Of a stretch of DNA of 64,000 nt, positions 1,492 to 43,630 are shown one piece after another. A program made the translations under genes and the position numbers. Origin of the DNA: Pseudomonas donghuensis (GTDB lineage Bacteria; Pseudomonadota; Gammaproteobacteria; Pseudomonadales; Pseudomonadaceae); assembly GCF_000259195.1 (NCBI RefSeq), contig NZ_JH650763.1:98592-162591 (forward strand). Direction: 5' to 3'. The notes under the pieces were generated by a model, which had not been told where the DNA came from, ran no database searches, and saw only the letters and a program-made list of their open reading frames with translations. How positions within the stretch are numbered: position 1 is the first letter of the stretch; the number at the start of each line of letters is the position of its first letter.

Positions 1492-3141
1492 TCAGGGCGT
1501 CGGTACTGCGGTGTTTTCGTCGATGCTGGTTGTGGATAACGTCCCCTGGCGAATCAGTTGCGCGGCCTTTTCGGCAATCATCAGGGTAGGGGAGCAGGTA
1601 TTGCCAGAGACGATTTGCGGCATGATCGAGGCATCGGCGATGCGCAGCCCCGGCACACCGTGCACGCGCAGCTGATTGTCGACCACATCCAGTGGCCCGT
1701 TGCCCATGCGGCAGGTGCCCACAGGGTGGAAGATCGTAGTGCCGATCTGCCCGGCGGCTTCATGCAATTGCTCTTCGCTTTGCAGGTCCGGGCCCGGCAG
1801 GTATTCGCGCGGGCTGAAGGCAGCCAGGGCAGGGGCCTGAACGATCTTGCGGGTCAGGCGAATGGCCTGGGCGGCAACGCGCAGGTCTTCAGGCTCGCTC
1901 AGGTAGTTGGGATCGATCAGCGGCGCATCGTCCGGGTTGGCCGAACGGATATCGATACGCCCGCGGCTGGCCGGGCGCAGGTTGCACACCGAAGCGGTAA
2001 AAGCCGGGAAGCGGTGCAGTGGCTCGCCGAAGCGTTCCAGCGACAAGGGCTGCACGTGGTATTGCAGGTTGGCTGAAGCCTGTTCCAGCCCGGAACGAAC
2101 AAAAGCGCCCAATTGGCTCGGCGCCATCGCCAGCGGTCCACTGCGGTCGTACAGGTAACGCAGGCCCATGCCAAGCTTGCCCCAGGGGCTGTTGGCGACC
2201 TGGTTGAGGGTTCGCGCCTGGGTAACCTGATAGATCAAACGCAATTGCAGATGGTCCTGCAGGTTGCCACCAACGCCGGGCAGCTCGTGACGAACAGTTA
2301 TCCCCAGGCTCTCGAGCAAGCCGCGCGGGCCGATGCCGGAGCGCTGCAGGATCCCGGGCGAACCCACGGAGCCTGCACACAGGATAATCTCCCGGCGTGC
2401 GCTGAAGTGCTGCCAATTGCCCTGCCAGCGGGCACGTACCGCGCACGCGCGGCCATCTTCCAGCAACACCTGATCAACCAGCACATCGGTCAGCACGGTC
2501 AGGTTGGGACGATTGCGGATCGGGCGCAGAAAGGCTTTGGCCGAGTTCCAGCGAATGCCGGCGCGCTGGTTGACCTGAAAGTATCCACAGCCCTGGTTAT
2601 CCCCGGTGTTGAAGTCAGCAACGCTGGCAATGCCGCTCTGCGCCGCCGCTTCGCGGAACGCATCGAGGATCGGCCAGGCGTAGCGCTGTTGCTCGACCCG
2701 CCACTCGCCTTGATTGCCATGCGCTTCGCTGGCGCCGCCGAAGTGGTGCTCGCTGGCCTTGAACAGTGGCAGCACGTCCTTCCAGGCCCAACCGGCATTG
2801 CCCTGCTCGGCCCAGCGATCGTAATCGCCAGCCTGGCCGCGCATGTAGATCATGCCGTTGATGGAGGAACAGCCCCCGAGCACCTTGCCTCGCGGATAAC
2901 CCAGGGTGCGGCCATTGAGGCCGGGTTGCACTTCGGTCTTGAAGCACCAGTCGGTACGCGGATTGCCGATGCAGTAGAGGTAGCCCACCGGAATGTGAAT
3001 CCAGGGGTAGTTGTCGCGCCCACCGGCTTCGAGCAGCAGCACCCGGCAGCCTGGGTCGGCAGATAAGCGGTTGGCCAATAGGCATCCGGCAGGGCCGGCA
3101 CCCACCACCACATAGTCGTAGACAGGATCGGCTGATGGCAT
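1492..3141 (-). CDS. GMC-family FAD-dependent oxidoreductase (choline dehydrogenase-like)
   Basis: This 549-residue protein begins with the FAD-binding motif VVVGAGPAG followed by an LLLEAGG strand. It has the GMC signature around YPRGKVLGGCSSING near residue 90. The conserved catalytic histidine lies in HPVGTCRMG near residue 465, and the C-terminal GNTCSPTLMIAEKAA block completes the active site. The family oxidises alcohols such as choline, glucose or aliphatic alcohols. The ATG at 3141 is preferred over an in-frame TTG six bases upstream, because GAGG lies 6 bp before the ATG. It is transcribed toward the MFS transporter and divergently from a LysR regulator, a common arrangement for a catabolic gene and its regulator. 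The substrate cannot be read from the sequence, so BetA identity is not claimed. Confidence 0.9.
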   Translation of the reverse strand: MPSADPVYDYVVVGAGPAGCLLANRLSADPGCRVLLLEAGGRDNYPWIHIPVGYLYCIGNPRTDWCFKTEVQPGLNGRTLGYPRGKVLGGCSSINGMIYMRGQAGDYDRWAEQGNAGWAWKDVLPLFKASEHHFGGASEAHGNQGEWRVEQQRYAWPILDAFREAAAQSGIASVADFNTGDNQGCGYFQVNQRAGIRWNSAKAFLRPIRNRPNLTVLTDVLVDQVLLEDGRACAVRARWQGNWQHFSARREIILCAGSVGSPGILQRSGIGPRGLLESLGITVRHELPGVGGNLQDHLQLRLIYQVTQARTLNQVANSPWGKLGMGLRYLYDRSGPLAMAPSQLGAFVRSGLEQASANLQYHVQPLSLERFGEPLHRFPAFTASVCNLRPASRGRIDIRSANPDDAPLIDPNYLSEPEDLRVAAQAIRLTRKIVQAPALAAFSPREYLPGPDLQSEEQLHEAAGQIGTTIFHPVGTCRMGNGPLDVVDNQLRVHGVPGLRIADASIMPQIVSGNTCSPTLMIAEKAAQLIRQGTLSTTSIDENTAVPTP

Positions 3142-4170: not shown

Positions 4171-4989
4171 TCAGCTGCCCAAGGTTTTGACCGCCAGCAG
4201 CAAGGCTGCGCAGATCCCCACACCTGCAAACATTTGCTGCAAGCGCGGCCCGGCCAGCTTGCTGGCGAGCTGACGCGCCAGCAGCAGCCCGAGCACCGCG
4301 CCGCCGGCAAACGGCGCGCCCACCGCCCAATGCATGACGCCGCCGACTGTCGCGCTGACCACACTGCCAGTCGACACCAGGGCGATCACCGCCAGCGAAG
4401 TGGCAACGATGCTCTTCATGTCAAGGTTGGTGTAGCGGCTCAGCGCCGGGATGATCACGAAGCCACCACCGACACCGAGCAATCCCGAAAGCAAACCCGA
4501 CAGTACACCGGTAAAGGCCAGGGCGCGGGCACAGGGCAGGGTCCAGCGCAGTCGCCCCTGCAAGGGGTTGAGCACGCAGGGCATGACGTGGCGCGGGCCC
4601 AGTGGCGGCTCGCCGCGAAGCTCCCGGCGAGCCTTGAGCAGCATGCGCGCACAGGCATAGACCAGCACCAGGGCAAAGCTCAGGGCCAATGGCCCGTTCG
4701 GCAGACGATGGGCAAGCATCAGCCCGAAGGGTGCGATAGCGATGCCAATCAACGCCACGAACAGCGCCGCGCGATAACGCACCAGGCCCTGGCGCAATCC
4801 CAGCAGGGCACCTACCGCCGCCGCCATGCCGACGGCCAGCAAGCCGACTGGCGCCGCCTCGACCATCGACAACCCCAAGCCAAACACCAGCAAGGGCACG
4901 GCCAGAATGCCGCCGCCAGCGCCGGTCAGCGCCAGCACCGCACCAATAATCGCCCCTAAACCTGCCGCCAGAAATTGATGCTCGATCAC
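4171..4989 (-). CDS. Sulfite exporter TauE/SafE family membrane protein
   Basis: A 272-residue, strongly hydrophobic protein with two repeated halves, each carrying the glycine-rich motif of the TauE/SafE family (LTGAGGGILAVPLL near residue 25 and LLGVGGGFVIIPAL in the second half). The family exports sulfite or other sulfur compounds through the inner membrane. The chosen start is the GTG at 4989, whose GTGA overlaps the stop codon of the upstream SQR gene by four bases, indicating translational coupling. A longer reading frame starting further upstream would lie inside the SQR gene. In this operon a role in exporting sulfite made by sulfide and persulfide oxidation is plausible but unproven. 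Confidence 0.88.
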   Translation of the reverse strand: MIEHQFLAAGLGAIIGAVLALTGAGGGILAVPLLVFGLGLSMVEAAPVGLLAVGMAAAVGALLGLRQGLVRYRAALFVALIGIAIAPFGLMLAHRLPNGPLALSFALVLVYACARMLLKARRELRGEPPLGPRHVMPCVLNPLQGRLRWTLPCARALAFTGVLSGLLSGLLGVGGGFVIIPALSRYTNLDMKSIVATSLAVIALVSTGSVVSATVGGVMHWAVGAPFAGGAVLGLLLARQLASKLAGPRLQQMFAGVGICAALLLAVKTLGS

Positions 4990-16113: not shown

Positions 16114-17631
16114 TCAAGTCGTCAGAGTCCGCAGCAGGTTCTTGTAGTCCTCGCGGATATCCGCGTCGGATTCCTTGAGTTCGTTGATCTTGCGGCACGC
16201 ATGCAACACGGTGGTGTGATCGCGGCCGCCGAATACGTCGCCGATTTCCGGCAGGCTGTGGTTGGTCAGCTCTTTGGACAAGGCCATGGCGACCTGCCGC
16301 GGACGGGCTACCGAACGGGAACGACGTTTGGACAACAGATCGGAGATCTTGATCTTGTAGTACTCGGCAACGGTGCGCTGGATGTTATCCACACTCACCA
16401 GTTTGTCCTGCAGTGCCAGAAGATCCTTGAGCGACTCGCGAATCAGCTCGATGGTGATGTCGCGGCCCATGAAGTGCGAGTGAGCGATCACCCGTTTCAG
16501 GGCGCCTTCGAGTTCGCGTACGTTGGAACGAATCCGTTGGGCAATGAAGAAAGCAGCATCATGCGGCAGGTCGACCTTGGCCTGATCGGCCTTCTTCATC
16601 AGGATCGCTACCCGGGTTTCGAGCTCCGGGGGTTCTACCGCAACGGTCAGGCCCCAGCCGAAACGCGACTTCAGGCGCTCTTCCAACCCTTCGATTTCCT
16701 TCGGATAACGGTCGCTGGTCAGAATGACCTGCTGACCGCCTTCGAGCAGGGCGTTGAAGGTGTGGAAAAACTCTTCCTGGGAACGCTCTTTGCGGGCGAA
16801 GAACTGAATGTCATCGATCAGCAGCGCATCGACCGAACGGTAGAAGCGCTTGAACTCATTGATTGCATTAAGTTGCAGCGCCTTGACCATGTCGGCGACA
16901 AAACGCTCGGAGTGCAGGTACACCACCTTGGCATTCGGATTCTTCTTGAGCAGGTGGTTACCCACAGCGTGCATCAAGTGAGTTTTACCCAGGCCCACGC
17001 CGCCGTACAGGAACAACGGGTTGTAGCCATGCTTGGGGTTGTCGGCAACCTGCCAGGCCGCAGCGCGGGCCAGCTGGTTGGACTTACCTTCGACGAAGTT
17101 CTCGAAGGTAAAGGTGCGGTTCAGGTAGCTGGTGTGCTTGAGCGCACCCTCAACCTGCACAGTGCGTTGTTCGGTGCGACCGCTTGGCGCCGGGGCGGCA
17201 TTGGCCTCGCCCATGGAATCGAAGCTGTCTCGCGAAGGCGCGTCCTCGACTTCAACCGTCGCGGCAGGGGCAGCAACAGGAGCGGCGACTGGTTCGTTGA
17301 CCACCGCCGTTTGCGCCGCCTGGGCCTGGGATGCAGCCACGGCAGCGGCGAGCGGTGCATTGGGCGCGGCGCGCGGTGCCGAACTGCGTCTGCTGCCTAT
17401 TAATAAGGAAAGCGCAGGTGCAATACCGTTGCCGTGTTCACCCAGCAGCTCGAGCAGACGGCTCAGGTACTTTTCATTGACCCAGTCGAGAACGAAACGG
17501 TTGGGCGCATAGACGCGCAACTCGTCGCCTTCGGCTTCGACCTGTAGCGGACGGATCCAGGTGTTGAATTGCTGGGCAGGCAGTTCATCGCGCAGAAGCT
17601 CCACGCACTGCTGCCAAAGTTCCACTGACAC
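16114..17631 (-). CDS. dnaA: Chromosomal replication initiator DnaA
   Basis: A 505-residue protein from the GTG at 17631, with GGGGAT just upstream; an in-frame extension to 17706 runs into the DnaA-box region and is rejected. Domain I begins [21 protein letters not shown] long Ala/Pro-rich linker (domain II, about 85-165) follows. The AAA+ domain III has Walker [15 protein letters not shown] and Walker B LIDDIQFF. Domain IV ends with the DnaA-box-binding signature [15 protein letters not shown]. It initiates replication at the adjacent oriC. DnaA boxes directly upstream suggest autoregulation. Confidence 0.99.
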
Positions 17632-18134
17632 GGATATCCCCTGAGTTGAAAGCCGGTGAGGCAAAAACAAGCGCCCATTGTACCCAGCGCCAGCGCAGTT
17701 ATCCACATGCAGGTGCGTCGAGGATGGCGATAAATCAGCACTTTAGTGACCAAAATGTCGTTTCGGACATGTGAATAAGCCCTGTGGATAACCGCACCTG
17801 AGGTCTTTGCACAACTGGGGGTCGAAATCGGTGGATAACCTGCCTGTGGATAACTGTCCATTTGATCCACAGCTTTTCCGAGGCTACACCACAGTCAGAA
17901 CACCTCTTCTCGACAAGGTTTCTTTCCTCTGTACATAAGGTATTTAAAGGTCTGTAGCTTGTTATCCACAGAAATCTTCCACATAAGCTTTATAAGATTC
18001 ACTAAAAAGCTTTAAATAAGTCCTCTCTTTTTTTCTATGTTTAAGTGATCCGTTGCTCGGGGTCTGTCAGGGCAAACCAGGTGAGCCACCGAATGAGGCC
18101 GATTTTCCGTCTATAAGGAAAAGCTGGTTGGAAA
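17632..18134. other. oriC: oriC, chromosomal origin with DnaA boxes and AT-rich unwinding region
   Basis: This gene-free stretch between dnaA and rpmH holds four perfect DnaA boxes: TTATCCACA at 17699-17707 and 17962-17970, and TGTGGATAA at 17783-17791 and 17845-17853. Near matches are at 17830-17838 and 17863-17871. An AT-rich tract with repeated AAGCTTTA-type segments (about 17985-18045) is the likely DNA-unwinding element. Position and content match the known Pseudomonas origin between rpmH and dnaA. Confidence 0.93.
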
Positions 18135-18163
18135 TTGACCTACGGCCCTGCTTTCTCTAGAAT
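18135..18163 (+). promoter_or_regulatory. Sigma-70 promoter of rpmH-rnpA
   Basis: TTGACC (18135-18140) and TAGAAT (18158-18163) are separated by exactly 17 bp, giving a strong sigma-70 type promoter. Transcription would start near 18170, about 54 bases before the rpmH ATG. Confidence 0.8.
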
Positions 18164-18223
18164 CGCCGGTCTCTTAAAACGGGGGCCATTCCGGCCCGTT
18201 GTCGACGAACCAGGTAACACGCC

Positions 18224-20782: not shown

Positions 20783-22153
20783 ATGAACACTGTGCGTGAA
20801 ACCATTGCCGCCATCGCTACCGCCCAGGGACGTGGGGGCGTGGGGATCGTGCGGCTATCCGGCCCCCTGGCCCAACAAGCCGGGCTGGCCATCTGTGGAA
20901 AAGCACTGACACCGCGGCACGCCCATTACGGAGCGTTCCGCGCTGAAGATGGCCTGGTGCTGGATGAAGGCATTGCGCTGTTTTTCCCTGGGCCCAACTC
21001 CTTTACCGGCGAAGACGTGCTTGAGCTGCAGGGCCACGGCGGCCCGGTAGTCCTCGATATGTTGCTGCAGCGCTGTGTACAACTGGGTTGCCGCCTGGCG
21101 CGCCCGGGTGAATTCAGTGAGCGGGCATTCCTCAACGACAAGCTCGACCTGGCCCAGGCCGAGGCGATCGCCGACCTGATCGAAGCCAGTTCTGCACAAG
21201 CTGCGCGCAATGCCTTGCGCTCGCTGCAGGGCGAATTTTCCCGCCGTGTGGATAACCTCACCGAGAAGTTGATCAGTCTGCGCATCTACGTGGAAGCTGC
21301 AATCGATTTCCCCGAAGAAGAAATCGACTTTCTTGCTGACGGTCACGTGCTGAGCATGCTCGATGAGGTGCGCAACAATTTATCCACAGTGCAGCGCGAA
21401 GCCGGGCAGGGCGCCTTGCTGCGCGACGGCATGACGGTGGTGATCGCTGGTCGGCCGAATGCCGGCAAGTCGAGCCTGCTTAACGTTCTGGCCGGCCGCG
21501 AGGCGGCGATTGTCACCGATATCGCCGGCACCACCCGGGACATCCTGCGCGAACATATCCACATCGACGGCATGCCGCTGCACGTTGTCGACACGGCTGG
21601 ATTGCGCGATACCGATGACCATGTGGAAAAGATCGGCGTGGAACGCGCACTCAAGGCCATCAACGAAGCCGATCGGGTGCTGTTGGTGGTCGACTCGACT
21701 GCACCGGAAGCCAGTGATCCGTTTGCCCTGTGGCCGGAATTTCTCGACCTGCGTCCGGATCCGGCCAAGGTTACGCTGATTCGCAACAAGGCAGATTTGA
21801 GTGGCGAAGCCATCGCCATGGAACAGAGTGAAGATGGCCACGTCACCATTACCCTCAGTGCCAAGGACACCGACATGGGGCTTGAGCTGCTGCGCGAGCA
21901 CCTGAAGGCCTGCATGGGTTATGAACAGACTGCTGAAAGCAGCTTCAGCGCCCGCAGGCGCCACCTGGAGGCATTGCGTCAGGCCGGTGCGCACCTGGAG
22001 CATGGACATGCGCAACTGACCCTCGCCGGTGCCGGTGAGCTGCTGGCAGAAGATTTGCGCCAGGCGCAACACGCCCTGGGCGAGATTACCGGTGCATTCA
22101 GTTCCGACGATCTGCTCGGACGCATCTTCTCCAGCTTCTGCATCGGCAAGTAA
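20783..22153 (+). CDS. mnmE: tRNA modification GTPase MnmE
   Basis: A 456-residue protein from the ATG at 20783 ([20 protein letters not shown]); an in-frame extension 12 codons upstream overlaps the terminator. The N-terminal formyl-THF-binding domain is followed by helices and an inserted G domain with G1 [12 protein letters not shown]2/G3 GTTRDILRE and DTAGLRD, and G4 RNKADL. The protein ends with the hallmark CIGK, whose cysteine is catalytic. With MnmG it makes the 5-carboxymethylaminomethyl modification of wobble uridine. It is separated from mnmG by a second oriC-like block. Confidence 0.98.
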
Positions 22154-22670
22154 GCGTCCTTATCCACAGTCGGGTCTGCAACGGACCCGACTGCAGCAGC
22201 CTTTTTCTCCAATCCCTTCTCCCGGTCAGGACAGCCACAGTGCTCGTGCTGCGCTGACTCCTGCGCGTCTATCCACATTCTGGTGAAATAAGCCCTGTGG
22301 AAAACCCACCTTCAGCTCCGTTGATAACTGGCCCTCAAGGCTGAAGATAACTCCCCTTGTGGGTAACTGGCCATTTCATCCACAGGCTTAAAGCGCTTAT
22401 CCAGAACGCTCATCCCCGGTAGGCCACAGGGTTTTGAATCTCTGTACATAAGGTAAATAAAGGCCTGTAGAACCTTATCCACAGAAAGGTGCCTGACTAA
22501 GAATAAACATAAAAACAAAGCTTTAATAAATTTCTCTCTTTTAATTTCTATTACCTGCCATTCATCCACAGCCTGGTTAAATTTTGTGCAAAAGGTTCCT
22601 TTAGAGGGGGGTAAGTCCCTATACTTGTGCGTTATCCCTATCTATTCCCGAAACAGGCACGAGGTGCGTG
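22154..22670. other. Second oriC-like DnaA-box cluster between mnmE and mnmG
   Basis: This 517 bp gene-free block has perfect DnaA boxes (TTATCCACA) at 22160-22168 and 22475-22483. One-mismatch boxes lie at 22269-22277, 22296-22304, 22358-22366, 22376-22384, 22397-22405 and 22562-22570. Its right half lines up with oriC at 17770-18040: both hold AATAAGCCCTGTGGA, then CTCTGTACATAAGGTA, then CCACAGAAA and an AT-rich tract containing AAAGCTTTAA and TCTCTTTT. It appears to be a diverged copy of the origin. Confidence 0.85.
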
Positions 22671-24563
22671 GTGGATTTCCCTTCCCGTTTTGAAGTGATC
22701 GTCATCGGCGGCGGCCATGCCGGTACCGAGGCTGCGCTTGCGTCTGCACGCATGGGGGTGAAAACCCTGCTGCTGACCCACAACGTGGAAACCCTCGGTC
22801 ATATGAGTTGCAACCCGGCCATCGGTGGCATCGGCAAGAGCCACCTGGTCAAGGAAATCGATGCGCTCGGCGGTGCAATGGCACTGGCCACTGACAAGAG
22901 CGGTATCCAATTCCGTGTATTGAACAACCGCAAAGGTCCGGCGGTGCGCGCTACTCGCGCCCAGGCCGACCGCGCCATCTACAAATCGGTGGTGCGCGAG
23001 ATTCTCGAGAACCAGCCCAACCTGTGGATATTCCAGCAGTCGTGCGACGACCTGATCGTCGAGCAGGACCAGGTACGCGGCGTGGTAACGCAAATGGGTC
23101 TGCGTTTTCTCGCCGACTCCGTGGTACTGACCACCGGGACCTTCCTCGGCGGACTTATCCACATCGGTTTGCAGAATTACTCCGGTGGCCGTGCCGGCGA
23201 TCCGCCGTCGATTGCCCTGGCGCGCCGCCTGCGTGAACTGCCGCTGCGCGTTGGCCGCCTGAAAACCGGTACACCGCCACGCATCGACGGGCGCTCGGTG
23301 GATTTCTCAGTGATGACCGAGCAACCGGGCGACACGCCGATCCCGGTGATGTCGTTCATGGGGTCCAAGGAACAACACCCGCGTCAGGTCAGTTGCTGGA
23401 TTACCCACACCAACGCCCGTACCCACGAGATCATTGCCTCGAACCTCGATCGTTCGCCGATGTACTCCGGGGTGATCGAAGGCATCGGCCCGCGCTACTG
23501 CCCGTCGATCGAAGACAAGATCCACCGCTTTGCCGACAAGGAAAGCCACCAGGTATTCATCGAGCCAGAAGGCCTGAACACCCACGAGCTGTACCCGAAC
23601 GGCATTTCCACGTCGTTACCGTTCGATGTGCAGTTGCAGATCGTGCGATCGATCCGCGGCATGGAAAACGCCCACATCGTGCGCCCGGGCTACGCCATCG
23701 AGTACGACTACTTCGATCCGCGCGACCTCAAGTACAGCCTGGAAACCAAGGTGATTGGCGGCCTGTTCTTTGCCGGCCAGATCAACGGCACCACGGGCTA
23801 CGAAGAAGCCGGTGCTCAGGGCCTGCTCGCCGGTACCAACGCCGCACTGCGCGCGCAGGGCCGTGAAAGCTGGTGCCCGCGTCGCGACGAAGCGTACATC
23901 GGCGTGCTGGTCGACGACCTGATTACCCTGGGGACCCAGGAGCCGTACCGCATGTTCACCTCGCGGGCCGAGTACCGCCTGATCCTGCGCGAAGACAACG
24001 CCGACCTGCGCCTGACCGAAAAAGGTCGCGAACTGGGCCTGGTCGATGACCAGCGTTGGGCCGCGTTCAGCGCCAAGCGCGAAGGCATCGCCCTGGAAGA
24101 ACAGCGTCTGAAGTCCACCTGGGTACGCCCGGATACCGCGCAAGGTCAGGCCATTGCTGAAAAATTCGGTACGCCGTTGAGCCATGAATACAACCTGCTC
24201 AACCTGCTGACCCGCCCGGAAATCGATTACGCCGGGCTGATGGCAGTGACCGGCGGCGCCGAGATCGACCCGCAAGTGGCCGAGCAGGTCGAGATCAAAA
24301 CCAAATACGCCGGTTACATCGACCGGCAACAGGAAGAAATCGCCCGGCTGCGCGCCAGCGAAGACACCCGCCTGCCCGACGATATCGATTACAGCGGTAT
24401 TTCCGGGCTGTCCAAGGAAATCCAGAGCAAACTCGGCCAGACCCGGCCCGAGACCCTGGGCCAGGCTTCGCGTATCCCCGGTGTGACCCCGGCGGCGATT
24501 TCCCTGTTGCTGATTCATCTGAAAAAACGCGGCGCAGGCCGCGAGTTGGAGCAAAGCGCTTGA
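22671..24563 (+). CDS. mnmG: tRNA uridine-5-carboxymethylaminomethyl modification enzyme MnmG
   Basis: A 630-residue FAD protein. The start is the GTG at 22671, with GAGG 6 bp upstream; the adjacent GTG at 22668 is too close to it. The dinucleotide-binding motif [18 protein letters not shown] is followed by [15 protein letters not shown]. The family signature [12 protein letters not shown] lies near residue 270 and the C-terminal MnmE-binding helices end the protein. It works with MnmE on tRNA wobble uridines. Its stop codon overlaps the TTG start of rsmG by four bases. Confidence 0.98.
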
Positions 24564-34285: not shown

Positions 34286-35653
34286 ATGTCTCTCGATATC
34301 GTTATTCTTGCCGCCGGCCAAGGCACCCGCATGCGCTCGGCGCTGCCCAAGGTGCTGCATCCGGTCGCCGGCGACTCCATGCTCGGCCATGTTATCCACA
34401 GCGCCCGCCAGCTTCAGCCGCAGGGCATTCATGTGGTGATCGGGCACGGTGCGGAGCTGGTACGTGAACGACTGGCCGCCGATGACCTGAACTTCGTCCT
34501 GCAGGACAAGCAGCTGGGTACCGGTCATGCCGTGGCCCAAGCTCTGCCGGCGCTGAGTGCCGATACCGCATTGATCCTCTACGGCGATGTCCCGCTGATC
34601 GAAGTCGACACCCTCAAGCGTCTGCTGGCCAAGGTCACCCCGCAACAGCTCGGCCTGCTGACCGTGACCCTCGACGATCCAACCGGTTACGGCCGCATCG
34701 TTCGCGACGCCCAGGGCCAGGTGGCGGCGATCGTCGAGCACAAGGATGCCAGCGACGCGCAGAAAGCCATCCAGGAAGGCAACACTGGCATCCTCGCGGT
34801 CCCGGGCGCGCGCCTGGCTGACTGGCTGGGCCGTTTGTCCAACAACAATGCCCAGGGCGAGTACTACCTCACTGACGTGATCGCCATGGCCGTGGCCGAT
34901 GGCCTGGTGGTCGCCACCGAGCAGCCGCTGGACCCGATGGAAGTGCAGGGCGCCAATGACCGTCGCCAGCTGGCCGAGCTTGAGCGTCACTACCAACTGC
35001 GCGAAGGCCGCCGGCTGATGGCCCAGGGTGTGACCCTGCGTGATCCAGCGCGCTTCGATGTGCGTGGCGAGGTGACCGTTGGTCGCGACGTACTCATTGA
35101 TATTAACGTGATCCTCGAAGGCCGCGTGGTCATTGAAGACGAGGTGGTCATCGGCCCGAACTGCGTGATCAAGAACAGTACCTTGCGCAAAGGCGTGGTG
35201 GTCAAGGCTAACAGCCATCTGGAAGGCGCCATCATGGGCGAAGGCAGCGATGCCGGCCCGTTTGCCCGCCTGCGCCCTGGCAGTGTGCTCGAGGCTCGCG
35301 CCCATGTGGGTAACTTTGTCGAGCTGAAGAACGCCCACCTCGGTGAGGGTGCCAAAGCTGGCCACCTGACCTACCTGGGCGATGCCGAAGTCGGTGCGCG
35401 TACCAACATCGGTGCCGGCACCATCACCTGCAACTACGATGGCGCCAACAAGTTCAAGACGGTACTCGGCGAGGACGTGTTCATCGGCTCGAACAACTCC
35501 CTGGTCGCGCCTGTGGATATCCTCGACGGCGCCACCACCGCAGCCGGTTCGACCATCACCCAGAACGTCGAAGCGGCGCAGTTGGCCGTTGGTCGGGCGC
35601 GCCAACGCAACATCGATGGCTGGAAGCGGCCGGAGAAGATCAACAAGAGCTGA
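34286..35653 (+). CDS. glmU: Bifunctional UDP-GlcNAc pyrophosphorylase / GlcN-1-P acetyltransferase
   Basis: A 455-residue two-domain enzyme. The N-terminal pyrophosphorylase has [18 protein letters not shown] at residues 9-26. From about residue 250 the protein shows the left-handed beta-helix hexapeptide repeats of the acetyltransferase, with [13 protein letters not shown] near residue 375. It makes UDP-GlcNAc for peptidoglycan and LPS. With the downstream regulator and glmS it forms an amino-sugar synthesis cluster. Confidence 0.98.
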
Positions 35654-35670
35654 GTTACCCACAGCTGAGC

Positions 35671-35707
35671 AAAAGGCCGACTGGATTGTGCATAAGTCGG
35701 CCTTTTT
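35671..35707 (+). terminator. Intrinsic terminator after glmU
   Basis: AAAAGGCCGACT (35671-35682), a 12-base loop, and AGTCGGCCTTTTT (35695-35707) form a long stem with a U-tract. It can act in both directions because of the A run on the left arm. Confidence 0.88.
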
Positions 35708-35840
35708 GCATTCTGTGGATAAATACTCTATGTGGTTCGAGTTATTCACAGCACGTTTTTTACGCCACTGTCCTTGACGTACAAGCCGCTATAGGTTTTG
35801 ATTGGCACCACTAACTTTCGAAACGAAACTTAAAGGCGCC

Positions 35841-41992: not shown

Positions 41993-42670
41993 GTTGGTGA
42001 TCCTCAAAAACCTAAAATAATCCCTAACTTTTACATTTGGAAAGTTCTATCCGTTATTAGTCAAAAGCTTGTTAGGTTATTCGGCTAATAGCCGGGTACG
42101 CATGCAGGCGCAGCCTTCCCTCCTCCAGCACCCCGGGTAGGGGACCGGAATCTTGTGTGCGCTTTGTGTAGGCGGAAATTTGTTTGCGGGAGATCTTGAG
42201 GAGTTTGCTATCGTTGGTGCGCAAACTTGTTGTCAGCCAGGAATTTCCGGCGTTAACATATTCTTTCGACCAAACTCATGGCGAAGAACGCGCCACCCGC
42301 TGATGGCCTTGACCAAGGCTCGCGAGGTGCTCGGATTCGCAACTGGCGGATACGCCTAAGGTAGACCTATCGAAAGAATTTCAGATGACAGCTAGCCATA
42401 CGAGAGAGCTGGAAGTCAGTTAGACAAGGGCCCAAGTGCGACCTTGGGCCCCTGTGGATAAGTCAGAAATGCTGCCTGACTTCTCCATTGTCTATCCCAT
42501 GCATGTGAGACGTCAAGTCTTGCACGGCTTCGCTCATCCACAAGAATCTGCGCGTTATCCACAGTCTGACGCGTGGTTACCTGCCCGCAGGATAAGGGTT
42601 TCGCCAGCGTGCCTGTTGTTATCCCCAACAGGTACGGCCTGCGGAATCCTGATGAGATTGGAATGCTTGG
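41993..42670. other. Divergent control region between tnsD-like and tnsA genes
   Basis: This 678 bp region carries no convincing gene. A 68-codon frame at 42153-42359 ends ALTKAREVLGFATGG and may be a fragment of a lost gene. A hairpin lies at 42428-42451 (GGGCCCAAG, six-base loop, CTTGGGCCC). Two perfect DnaA boxes follow, TGTGGATAA at 42453-42461 and TTATCCACA at 42555-42563. The left end is AT-rich and probably contains the tnsD promoter. Confidence 0.55.
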
Positions 42671-43630
42671 ATGAAACCGCAGGAAAGATTTGATCTCATC
42701 ATGAGCCGCCAGAGTCGGTTCAAATGGGGTGGGGAGTATGTACCGTCCACGCTGGCGGTTCCCCGGGAGGCTCCAAAGGGGTCTCGAATCAGCAGGCTGC
42801 ACAGTCAAAAGCTGAGACGTACGCTTCATCTCCTTTCTTGGCCGGAGAAAGTGTTCGCGCAATTAGCCCTCTACCATCCTGATCTGTTTGAGATGCACGA
42901 GCAGAAAATGCTCTGGCCCATCAATGCAGGCCATCCGTTACGAGGACACCCTTTGACGAAGGGGACCTTTCCGCCGCCTCTGCGCGGTACCGTCGATATC
43001 GCCGCAGAGATAGGTTTTAAGCATCATCAAATCGTAGTTGAAGATGAGAGTGGCAGACAGAGAGTGCCATACCCCTACCAAGGGGACCTTCTGTTGTACC
43101 TGCTGAATAGCCGAGGAGAACCTTACGCCGTCAACTGGACGGTCAAGGACCAGGCAGGAGCTTTCCGTGAGCGGCGAAGGACATCGCCGAAGACTCCTGT
43201 TCAGCAGCGGGGAGACCGTGAGCATGCCGAACTCAGGGGCGAGTTGGAGAGGCAATACTACGCGAGTGCCGACATCCGAACCGTTGAGGTTTCTCGCGAC
43301 ATGTTAACGCCCACGATCCAAGCGAACCTGGATCTCTTGTTTGGCATGCACGACCTGAATTCCTCTCTTGAGGCGACTTTGCTGGATGACTTCAGTAGCG
43401 CAGTGGCCGATGCCGTGCAGACTGGCAATCCTGTTGCCTACGTGGCGATCGAATACAGTGCTCGGTGGGGTTTGCGCGACCAATTCATCGCGAAAATCTA
43501 TCAGGATATTTGGGATCGAAGACTCCTCGTCGACTTTAGCGAACCTATCCTGATTGATCGCCCGCTCGTTACTGGTGGATGCGATCTGCTTCAGGAATTC
43601 AGCTCATTTTTCGAAGAGACGGCATTGTGA
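42671..43630 (+). CDS. tnsA: TnsA-like transposon endonuclease
   Basis: A 319-residue protein. The restriction-enzyme-like catalytic set is likely E59 (SWPEKVFAQL), D139 (YQGDLLLYLL) and K159 (VNWTVKDQ), comparable in order to the Glu-Asp-Lys of Tn7 TnsA. A C-terminal winged-helix part follows (ADIRTVEVSRDMLT onward). TnsA cuts the 5' ends of the transposon and works with TnsB to give full excision. The start at 42671 has a weak ribosome site; an ATG at 42701 is an alternative. It overlaps tnsB by four bases. Confidence 0.9.
   Translation: MKPQERFDLIMSRQSRFKWGGEYVPSTLAVPREAPKGSRISRLHSQKLRRTLHLLSWPEKVFAQLALYHPDLFEMHEQKMLWPINAGHPLRGHPLTKGTFPPPLRGTVDIAAEIGFKHHQIVVEDESGRQRVPYPYQGDLLLYLLNSRGEPYAVNWTVKDQAGAFRERRRTSPKTPVQQRGDREHAELRGELERQYYASADIRTVEVSRDMLTPTIQANLDLLFGMHDLNSSLEATLLDDFSSAVADAVQTGNPVAYVAIEYSARWGLRDQFIAKIYQDIWDRRLLVDFSEPILIDRPLVTGGCDLLQEFSSFFEETAL

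Follow-up and report, generated by a model that had tools for sequence, protein, structure and literature searches.

The window, by which we mean the whole 64 kb stretch of DNA that was analysed, is the neighbourhood of the Pseudomonas chromosome origin and exhibits the gene order dnaN, dnaA (minus strand), dnaA-rpmH spacer, rpmH, rnpA, yidC, mnmE, mnmE-mnmG spacer, mnmG and rsmG; two open reading frames past rsmG are putatively parA and parB. The dnaA gene occupies positions 16117–17631 (minus strand), mnmE positions 20783–22153 (plus strand, presumably starting with the ATG at MNTVRET) and mnmG (gidA) positions 22668–24563 (plus strand, scoring above the TIGR00136 cut-off). The nearest named relatives of the MnmG protein come from a MAG filed as Paucimonas (95%) and from Pseudomonas faucium (94%), in a collection that possibly lacks the window's own record. 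The accepted Pseudomonas origin, referred to here as oriC1, lies in the dnaA-rpmH spacer (17632–18223): passages in the literature locate the P. putida origin between rpmH and dnaA (PMC3056050) and describe the P. aeruginosa origin as adjoining dnaA (PMC3642087). The subject of this analysis is a block in the mnmE-mnmG spacer (22154–22667), referred to as oriC2, from which mnmG is directed away. The original prediction had placed a second oriC-like copy between these genes at 22154–22670: such a copy is indeed present, although the spacer ends at 22667, as mnmG starts with the GTG at 22668, and the part that can be aligned to oriC1 is restricted to 22283–22551 (17771–18038 in oriC1). The GC skew of the 64 kb window did not discriminate between 17.9 kb and 22.4 kb.

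DnaA boxes near gidA were reportedly noted in P. putida by Ogasawara and Yoshikawa. Counting boxes with at most one mismatch, oriC2 contains eight (two of them perfect) in 514 nt and oriC1 contains seven (four perfect), and the cluster in oriC2 is thus beyond chance, as would be demanded of an oriC. Within the window the two blocks have a scaffold of four boxes in common, with the orientations and spacings (-)62(-)18(+)99(+), followed by an AT-rich element. In case of oriC2 the scaffold consists of an outer box at 22296–22304 (minus strand; TGTGGAAAA on the plus strand), whose counterpart by position in E. coli we take to be R4, an inner minus box at 22358–22366 (minus strand; TGTGGGTAA on the plus strand), an inner plus box at 22376–22384 (plus strand; TCATCCACA), 18 nt past the inner minus box, and a perfect last box at 22475–22483 (plus strand; TTATCCACA), which adjoins the AT-rich element and presumably corresponds to R1 of E. 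coli. An extra perfect box is found next to mnmE (22160–22168, plus strand) outside the alignable part, and boxes with one mismatch each are present at 22269, 22397 and 22562, the last of these also outside the alignable part. The oriC1 scaffold spans 17783–17970, with boxes at 17783 (-), 17845 (-), 17863 (+) and 17962 (+) and identical spacings of 62/18/99. The perfect box closest to dnaA (17699–17707, plus strand) is probably the dnaA promoter or autoregulatory box, because a perfect box is found in 13/14 loci that have a single box upstream of dnaA (L144, L149, L150, L153, L159, L167 and L169 are among these loci), with 11 of the 13 plus-oriented. Two other groups of boxes with at most one mismatch occur in the window. 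Five boxes lie at 35512–35750, one in the 3' end of the 34286–35653 reading frame and four within ~90 nt directly downstream of it; they are a possible candidate for a DnaA-binding site outside the origin. Four boxes lie at 42453–42627, upstream of the 42671–43630 reading frame, in a stretch without a listed reading frame of at least 150 amino acids.

A repeat search returned three pairs connecting oriC1 and oriC2: 62 nt with 79% identity (CTCTGTACATAAGGTA ... CCACAGAAA) and 45 nt with 73% identity (AATAAGCCCTGTGGA), both at a spacing of 4513, and 26 nt with 85% identity (AAAGCTTTAA ... TCTCTTTT) at a spacing of 4511. All five segments quoted in the original prediction as shared with oriC are present, in the same order and at a near-constant offset of 4511–4513. 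Local alignment of 17771–18038 with 22283–22551 is collinear and yields a score of 107, compared to a mean of 25 and a maximum of 48 for 1000 shuffles of the oriC2 block in which every DnaA box with up to two mismatches was held in place; the global alignment score of 336.5 likewise exceeds the shuffle maximum of 272. The comparison with shuffled, box-bearing sequences that had been proposed as a check thus came out clearly in favour of homology. When the oriC2 block was used as a blastn query against its own genome (64 contigs, E ≤ 0.001), only two places were matched, oriC2 itself and oriC1 (E 3.6e-14), and a more sensitive sequence model added one weak match on a different contig (18.0 bits, E 0.009). 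Comparison of the block with plasmid records gave no match, and a plasmid source is therefore unsupported. A paralogous duplication, as opposed to a chance cluster, had been suggested from the letters of the window, and the collinear alignment, the blastn result and the box re-placing test described below all support it.

The conservation of this arrangement was analysed in a genus sample comprising the window and 20 loci from 58 other genomes, a selection biased to divergent ones (L003–L031 were left out). A three-box core (spacings 17–19 and 97–101, at most 5 mismatches of 27) is present at the mnmG site of all 21 loci and at 18 of the 19 dnaA sites with data, with no occurrence in 2.26 Mb of the same loci outside both spacers (mostly coding DNA). 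The four-box scaffold (at most 8 mismatches of 36, first spacing 55–80) was found at mnmG in 21/21 genus loci, in a further Pseudomonadaceae locus (L080) and in 21/21 named close relatives, and at dnaA in 20/20 Pseudomonadaceae loci with data, with no occurrence in 2.17 Mb of background; the near-constant span of the scaffold is partly built in, because the search admitted totals of 177–182 only. The exact spacing 62/18/99 is exhibited by 21/21 genus loci on the mnmG side versus 17/19 on the dnaA side. Upon random re-placing of the boxes with the same search freedom, ten of the 12 sequences tested never reached the observed score in 300 trials, and Colwellia and Psychromonas did so once in 300 each. 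A blastn match to the oriC2 block was obtained in 58/59 genus genomes, some of these matches possibly being to oriC1. The mnmE-mnmG distance ranges from 0.4 to 8.9 kb within the genus and exceeds 1 kb in nine of the 21 loci (L033, L034, L036, L039, L040, L042, L047, L049 and L051): this interval accepts insertions, and the mnmG-side scaffold is intact in all nine. In every one of the 21 loci the scaffold starts 370–501 nt upstream of mnmG.

Adjoining the last box of oriC2 is a putative DNA unwinding element (22484–22553, plus strand), which consists of ~13 nt of mixed bases followed by the AT-rich CTAAGAATAAACATAAAAACAAAGCTTTAATAAATTTCTCTC; the AT-rich flank containing AAAGCTTTAA and TCTCTTTT is common to oriC1 and oriC2. 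At the level of sequence, oriC2 thereby possesses the AT-rich element next to the last box that is expected of an oriC, with a mean AT content of 72% over the 75 nt past this box in the 21 genus loci. Leaving the boxes aside, it is also in this element that the mnmG-side block is best conserved. Among 17 genomes having the spacing 18/99 in both copies, identity from +24 to +70, where counting begins with the first base of the last box, averages 0.733 for oriC2 versus 0.559 for oriC1, and oriC2 is the more conserved copy in 106/136 genome pairs, which are not independent of each other; in a gapped comparison from +9 to +100 the lead shrinks to 0.614 versus 0.538. The outer box and the middle spacer show the reverse, with conservation values of 1.0 and 0.605 in oriC1 versus 0.91 and 0.525 in oriC2. 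As regards DnaA-trio repeats, which in an oriC would follow the last box at a short fixed distance, a YTAR motif 11–14 nt past this box occurs in 31/72 blocks, drawn from all groups, versus 12% in shuffles; it is found in only 4/22 Pseudomonadaceae oriC2 blocks, that of the window included. A strict CTAA/trio signature did not hold across the blocks. Between the unwinding element and mnmG lies a probable mnmG promoter (22597–22625, plus strand), with a -10-like TATACT at 22620–22625 and a weak -35-like element at 22597–22602: a scan with the sigma-70 consensus found no promoter, and the probable role of the TATACT element is suggested by its conservation, as CTATACT is present within 400 nt upstream of mnmG in 21/21 genus loci. 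The length from the AT-rich element to TATACT varies within the genus.

In order to survey the family, we used a sequence model that covers the right half of each copy (model R1), trained on 19 dnaA-side and 22 mnmG-side blocks. "Both copies" was defined as a match just upstream of mnmG together with a second one 0.9–30 kb further up, which from its position was taken as the dnaA-side copy. At least 50 of 69 Pseudomonadaceae genomes contain both copies by this definition, a lower bound since the filters lose weak matches and contig breaks probably interfere in G424 and G445; 11 genomes have the mnmG-side match only, three the further match only and five neither. The two matches are separated by 4.4 to ~24 kb (dnaA itself was not located). 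The score is higher at mnmG in 44/50 genomes, which is not independent evidence, because the model was trained on both copies. G421, G436 and G447 (all genus g286) and G434 (g284) have neither copy near mnmG by this model, with one weak match 30 kb away in G447. The g286 genomes give 2600–3100 first-look candidates, compared to mostly a few hundred elsewhere, and hence may be AT-rich genomes with a changed origin.

Outside of the family, 59 of the 73 genomes of the order were sampled (the 14 left out include two with mnmG at a contig start and one with a split gene). The three-box core was found at only 16/58 testable mnmG sites and at 4/44 testable dnaA sites; where both sites were testable (43 loci), it is present at mnmG only in 10, at dnaA only in two, at both in one and at neither in 30. 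A genome-wide search with model R1 gave 26 matches in 21/73 genomes of the order outside Pseudomonadaceae, of which 10 lie just upstream of mnmG, five upstream of dnaA and 11 elsewhere or unplaced; placement was by comparison of coordinates, and the dnaA-side call in G389 is derived only from the distance to yidC. In L079, a locus presumably belonging to the Halomonadaceae, the AT-rich portion of the block at mnmG contains ACAGAACTTC, which appears as the unwinding element motif of Halomonadaceae origins in passages of a published study (PMC7174414). In the remainder of the class, 274 genomes gave a match, and 60 of these, spread over families, were sampled among the matches listed: the core is present at 1/56 testable mnmG sites and 0/18 dnaA sites, and the four-box search covered three of these loci only (L112, L117 and L121). 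Among named loci, the four-box scaffold was also detected in Salinisphaera sp. G21_0 (3 mismatches) and Porticoccus (7 mismatches). It was absent from the loci of Saccharophagus, Porticoccaceae, Oleiphilus, Acinetobacter, Chromatiaceae, two Methylococcaceae and one unassigned MAG, and from all 37 remaining, mostly betaproteobacterial, loci.

All 12 named loci of the Vibrio-Aeromonas-Shewanella-Alteromonas kind have the same scaffold in the mnmG-side spacer (four from Aeromonas, two from Shewanella and one each from Vibrio, Salinivibrio, Alteromonas, Colwellia, Pseudidiomarina and Psychromonas), as does E. coli SK1144; the mismatches number 2 to 7, the spacings are 72–74/18–19/86–89 and the total is 177–181. 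The oriC of E. coli, Vibrio and Aeromonas thus resembles oriC2 in having the same neighbour, mnmG, in the AT-rich element lying toward mnmG and in the box order (-,-,+,+): oriC2 is located directly upstream of mnmG with its putative unwinding element facing this gene, and its scaffold span of 179 (62/18/99 in Pseudomonas) compares with 180 in E. coli and Vibrio. The difference lies in the inner pair, which is ~11 bp, i.e. one helical turn, nearer to the last box in E. coli and Vibrio than in oriC2. A further difference concerns GATC, the richness in which is tied to Dam/SeqA control: no GATC is present in oriC2 (22154–22667) and two in oriC1, whereas the 460 nt that precede mnmG in E. coli contain 18. 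No Dam/SeqA control is therefore expected at oriC2, and our claim is accordingly one of common descent and like layout, as opposed to membership of the Dam-controlled enteric class. The dnaA-rpmH spacer of E. coli holds one perfect box and no scaffold (best hit 13 mismatches of 36). In E. coli, mnmE and mnmG are 36.5 kb apart and convergent; the idea that the E. coli oriC was merely displaced by an insertion between these genes was dropped, since their convergence means that an inversion was also involved.

The descent of the two addresses was analysed with trees of the blocks, which are short when aligned; blocks were collected with up to six mismatches, and a limit of five was applied for the tree and the topology tests, by which the dnaA-side block of L050 was dropped. 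With midpoint rooting, the Pseudomonadaceae oriC1 blocks form one clade (support 91) and the oriC2 blocks another (75), and the two are mutual sisters (62). Pairing of the blocks within genomes was rejected by every topology test. One ancient duplication that would separate all dnaA-side from all mnmG-side blocks was rejected by the AU (0.0019) and KH (0.0015) tests, though not by the SH test (0.354); the dnaA-side blocks of L059, L064, L107 and possibly L076 look as if they had arisen separately. A topology uniting oriC1 with the L076 dnaA-side block was not rejected (AU 0.255), and the duplication may therefore predate the Pseudomonadaceae. The lineages that branch next to the family in a phylogeny built from up to five proteins (L060, L065, L066, L091 and L076) have the core on the mnmG side, with a dnaA-side core additionally in L076 and, by model R1, in the genome of L066. 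The mnmG-side blocks of neighbouring lineages are closer to oriC2 than to oriC1 in 17/19 genomes. Judged from these sequences, the block trees are consistent with a single duplication close to the origin of the Pseudomonadaceae, and for these lineages mnmG would be the older of the two addresses, with the dnaA-side copy added near the family base. Calling oriC2 the diverged copy thus probably turns the relation round: it is the dnaA-side copy that looks newer and has the less conserved unwinding region. As far as descent is concerned, the suggestion of an ancestral or auxiliary origin gains support from the mnmG-address scaffold in relatives and in E. coli and from the sister clades. An older mnmG address runs against the usual view, found in passages of PMC8287927, that the dnaA-side origin is ancestral in bacteria and E. 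coli the rearranged case; this view covers bacteria at large.

Because address, orientation and layout are the same, we read oriC2 as a second complete oriC that corresponds by descent to the origin beside mnmG in E. coli, Vibrio and their kin, with the accepted oriC as its paralogue, and assign this reading a probability of about two in three. Building on the observed homology, scaffold, conservation and distribution, we infer DnaA binding, unwinding and firing at oriC2, together with the direction of the duplication. After a duplication near the base of the Pseudomonadaceae, both copies would have been inherited side by side without homogenisation. DnaA would load first onto the strong last box and the other good boxes, the weak boxes of oriC2 would be filled once ATP-DnaA is high, and the AT-rich element on the mnmG side would then be opened as at oriC1. 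A fork from either origin would soon replicate the other: as the two are only 4.5 kb apart, they would allow for one start per round, making the double state cheap. oriC2 would hence serve as an origin-competent partner or backup, whose boxes also hold DnaA.

The last of these roles could be the only one. A datA-like titration site is a DnaA-box cluster outside the origin that acts by IHF-assisted hydrolysis of DnaA-ATP, and oriC2 could be an oriC copy that no longer initiates and instead titrates DnaA after initiation, preventing a second start. Its eight boxes with at most one mismatch, most of them imperfect, are in line with such a reservoir, as is the fact that the block would be duplicated soon after oriC1 fires, given the 4.5 kb distance; at second hand, one of the P. 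aeruginosa elements discussed below is also described as dispensable. We nonetheless consider this reading unlikely, because a sink needs neither a conserved unwinding element nor fixed spacing, whilst the AT-rich element is better conserved in oriC2 than in oriC1 and the mnmG-side spacing was the one without exception in the genus. The better-conserved unwinding region likewise argues against a decaying relic, kept by chance since deletions near mnmG are costly: the lower number of perfect boxes compared to oriC1 (2 vs 4) and the family genomes in which model R1 misses one copy (14/69) or both (five) would suit decay, but the unchanged spacing within the genus and the presence of the scaffold in every named close relative make it the least credible explanation, to which we attach hardly any weight.

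The two copies could also be the halves of one bipartite origin, with DnaA bridging them across rpmH-rnpA-yidC-mnmE and opening at one of them. The frequent presence of both copies in the family is compatible with this, and origins with spacer genes have precedents in B. subtilis and H. pylori in the passages concerned of PMC4285127. It appears improbable to us, however, as the distance is not kept (mnmE and mnmG are separated by as much as 8.9 kb within the genus, and the family matches by 4.4 to ~24 kb), each copy has an AT-rich element of its own and some genomes have a single copy only. Even more doubtful is a DnaA-controlled mnmG promoter, in which the boxes would be regulatory and the likeness to oriC inherited but unused for replication: whilst the block stays by mnmG despite the insertions on the mnmE side (the nine of 21 loci above 1 kb) and the conserved TATACT lies downstream, this promoter-like element is separate from the AT-rich element and at a variable distance from it, and regulation leaves unexplained why the four-box geometry is common to the origins of E. 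coli and Vibrio.

The closest parallel to a second complete oriC comes from P. aeruginosa, for which Yee and Smith (1990) and Jiang et al. (2006) are said to be the original papers on two replicating elements; the title of Yee and Smith reportedly sets the Pseudomonas origins apart from the E. coli type as a class of their own. Passages of PMC4403523 describe two autonomously replicating elements, only one of them essential in laboratory conditions, and hence, like the window, two oriC-like elements on one Pseudomonas chromosome; these passages make no mention of a shared scaffold, retention across the family or a connection with the address used in E. coli. The mnmE-mnmG block may be the second of these P. 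aeruginosa elements. Within the window itself, oriC1 is the nearest relative of oriC2, with identical four-box spacing and the same AT-rich flank, and differs from it in its other address, its larger number of perfect boxes and its less conserved unwinding region. A mirror image of the Pseudomonas case is found in E. coli rnhA mutants, in which, according to passages of PMC12000880, a DnaA-dependent start zone observed after UV, oriK-3850, borders dnaA, with oriC next to mnmG; its full induction needs oriC too. The comparison of scaffolds and of the two addresses is likely to be new, no such paper being apparent by title or abstract opening among those listed in a search of mainly open-access literature.

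A more far-reaching version of the two-origin reading, which we put forward tentatively and regard as more apt to be wrong than right, holds that in this section of the Gammaproteobacteria the mnmG copy is the inherited origin, that the two-origin state has been kept in the Pseudomonadaceae ever since a duplication close to the family base, that oriC2 fires and that the E. coli and Pseudomonas types are two helical registers of one moving scaffold. If this is true, oriC2 would fire as a backup, or even serve certain species as their main origin, and duplication followed by loss would have shifted the scaffold between the addresses at dnaA and mnmG. The occupation of both addresses by copies of one scaffold offers a simple route by which an essential origin may move: duplicate, coexist and lose one. 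The Pseudomonadaceae also lend themselves, as a natural system, to the questions of why a pair of origins at a distance of 4.5 kb has been tolerated for so long and which spacings of DnaA boxes matter, given that nature uses two registers differing by about one helical turn.
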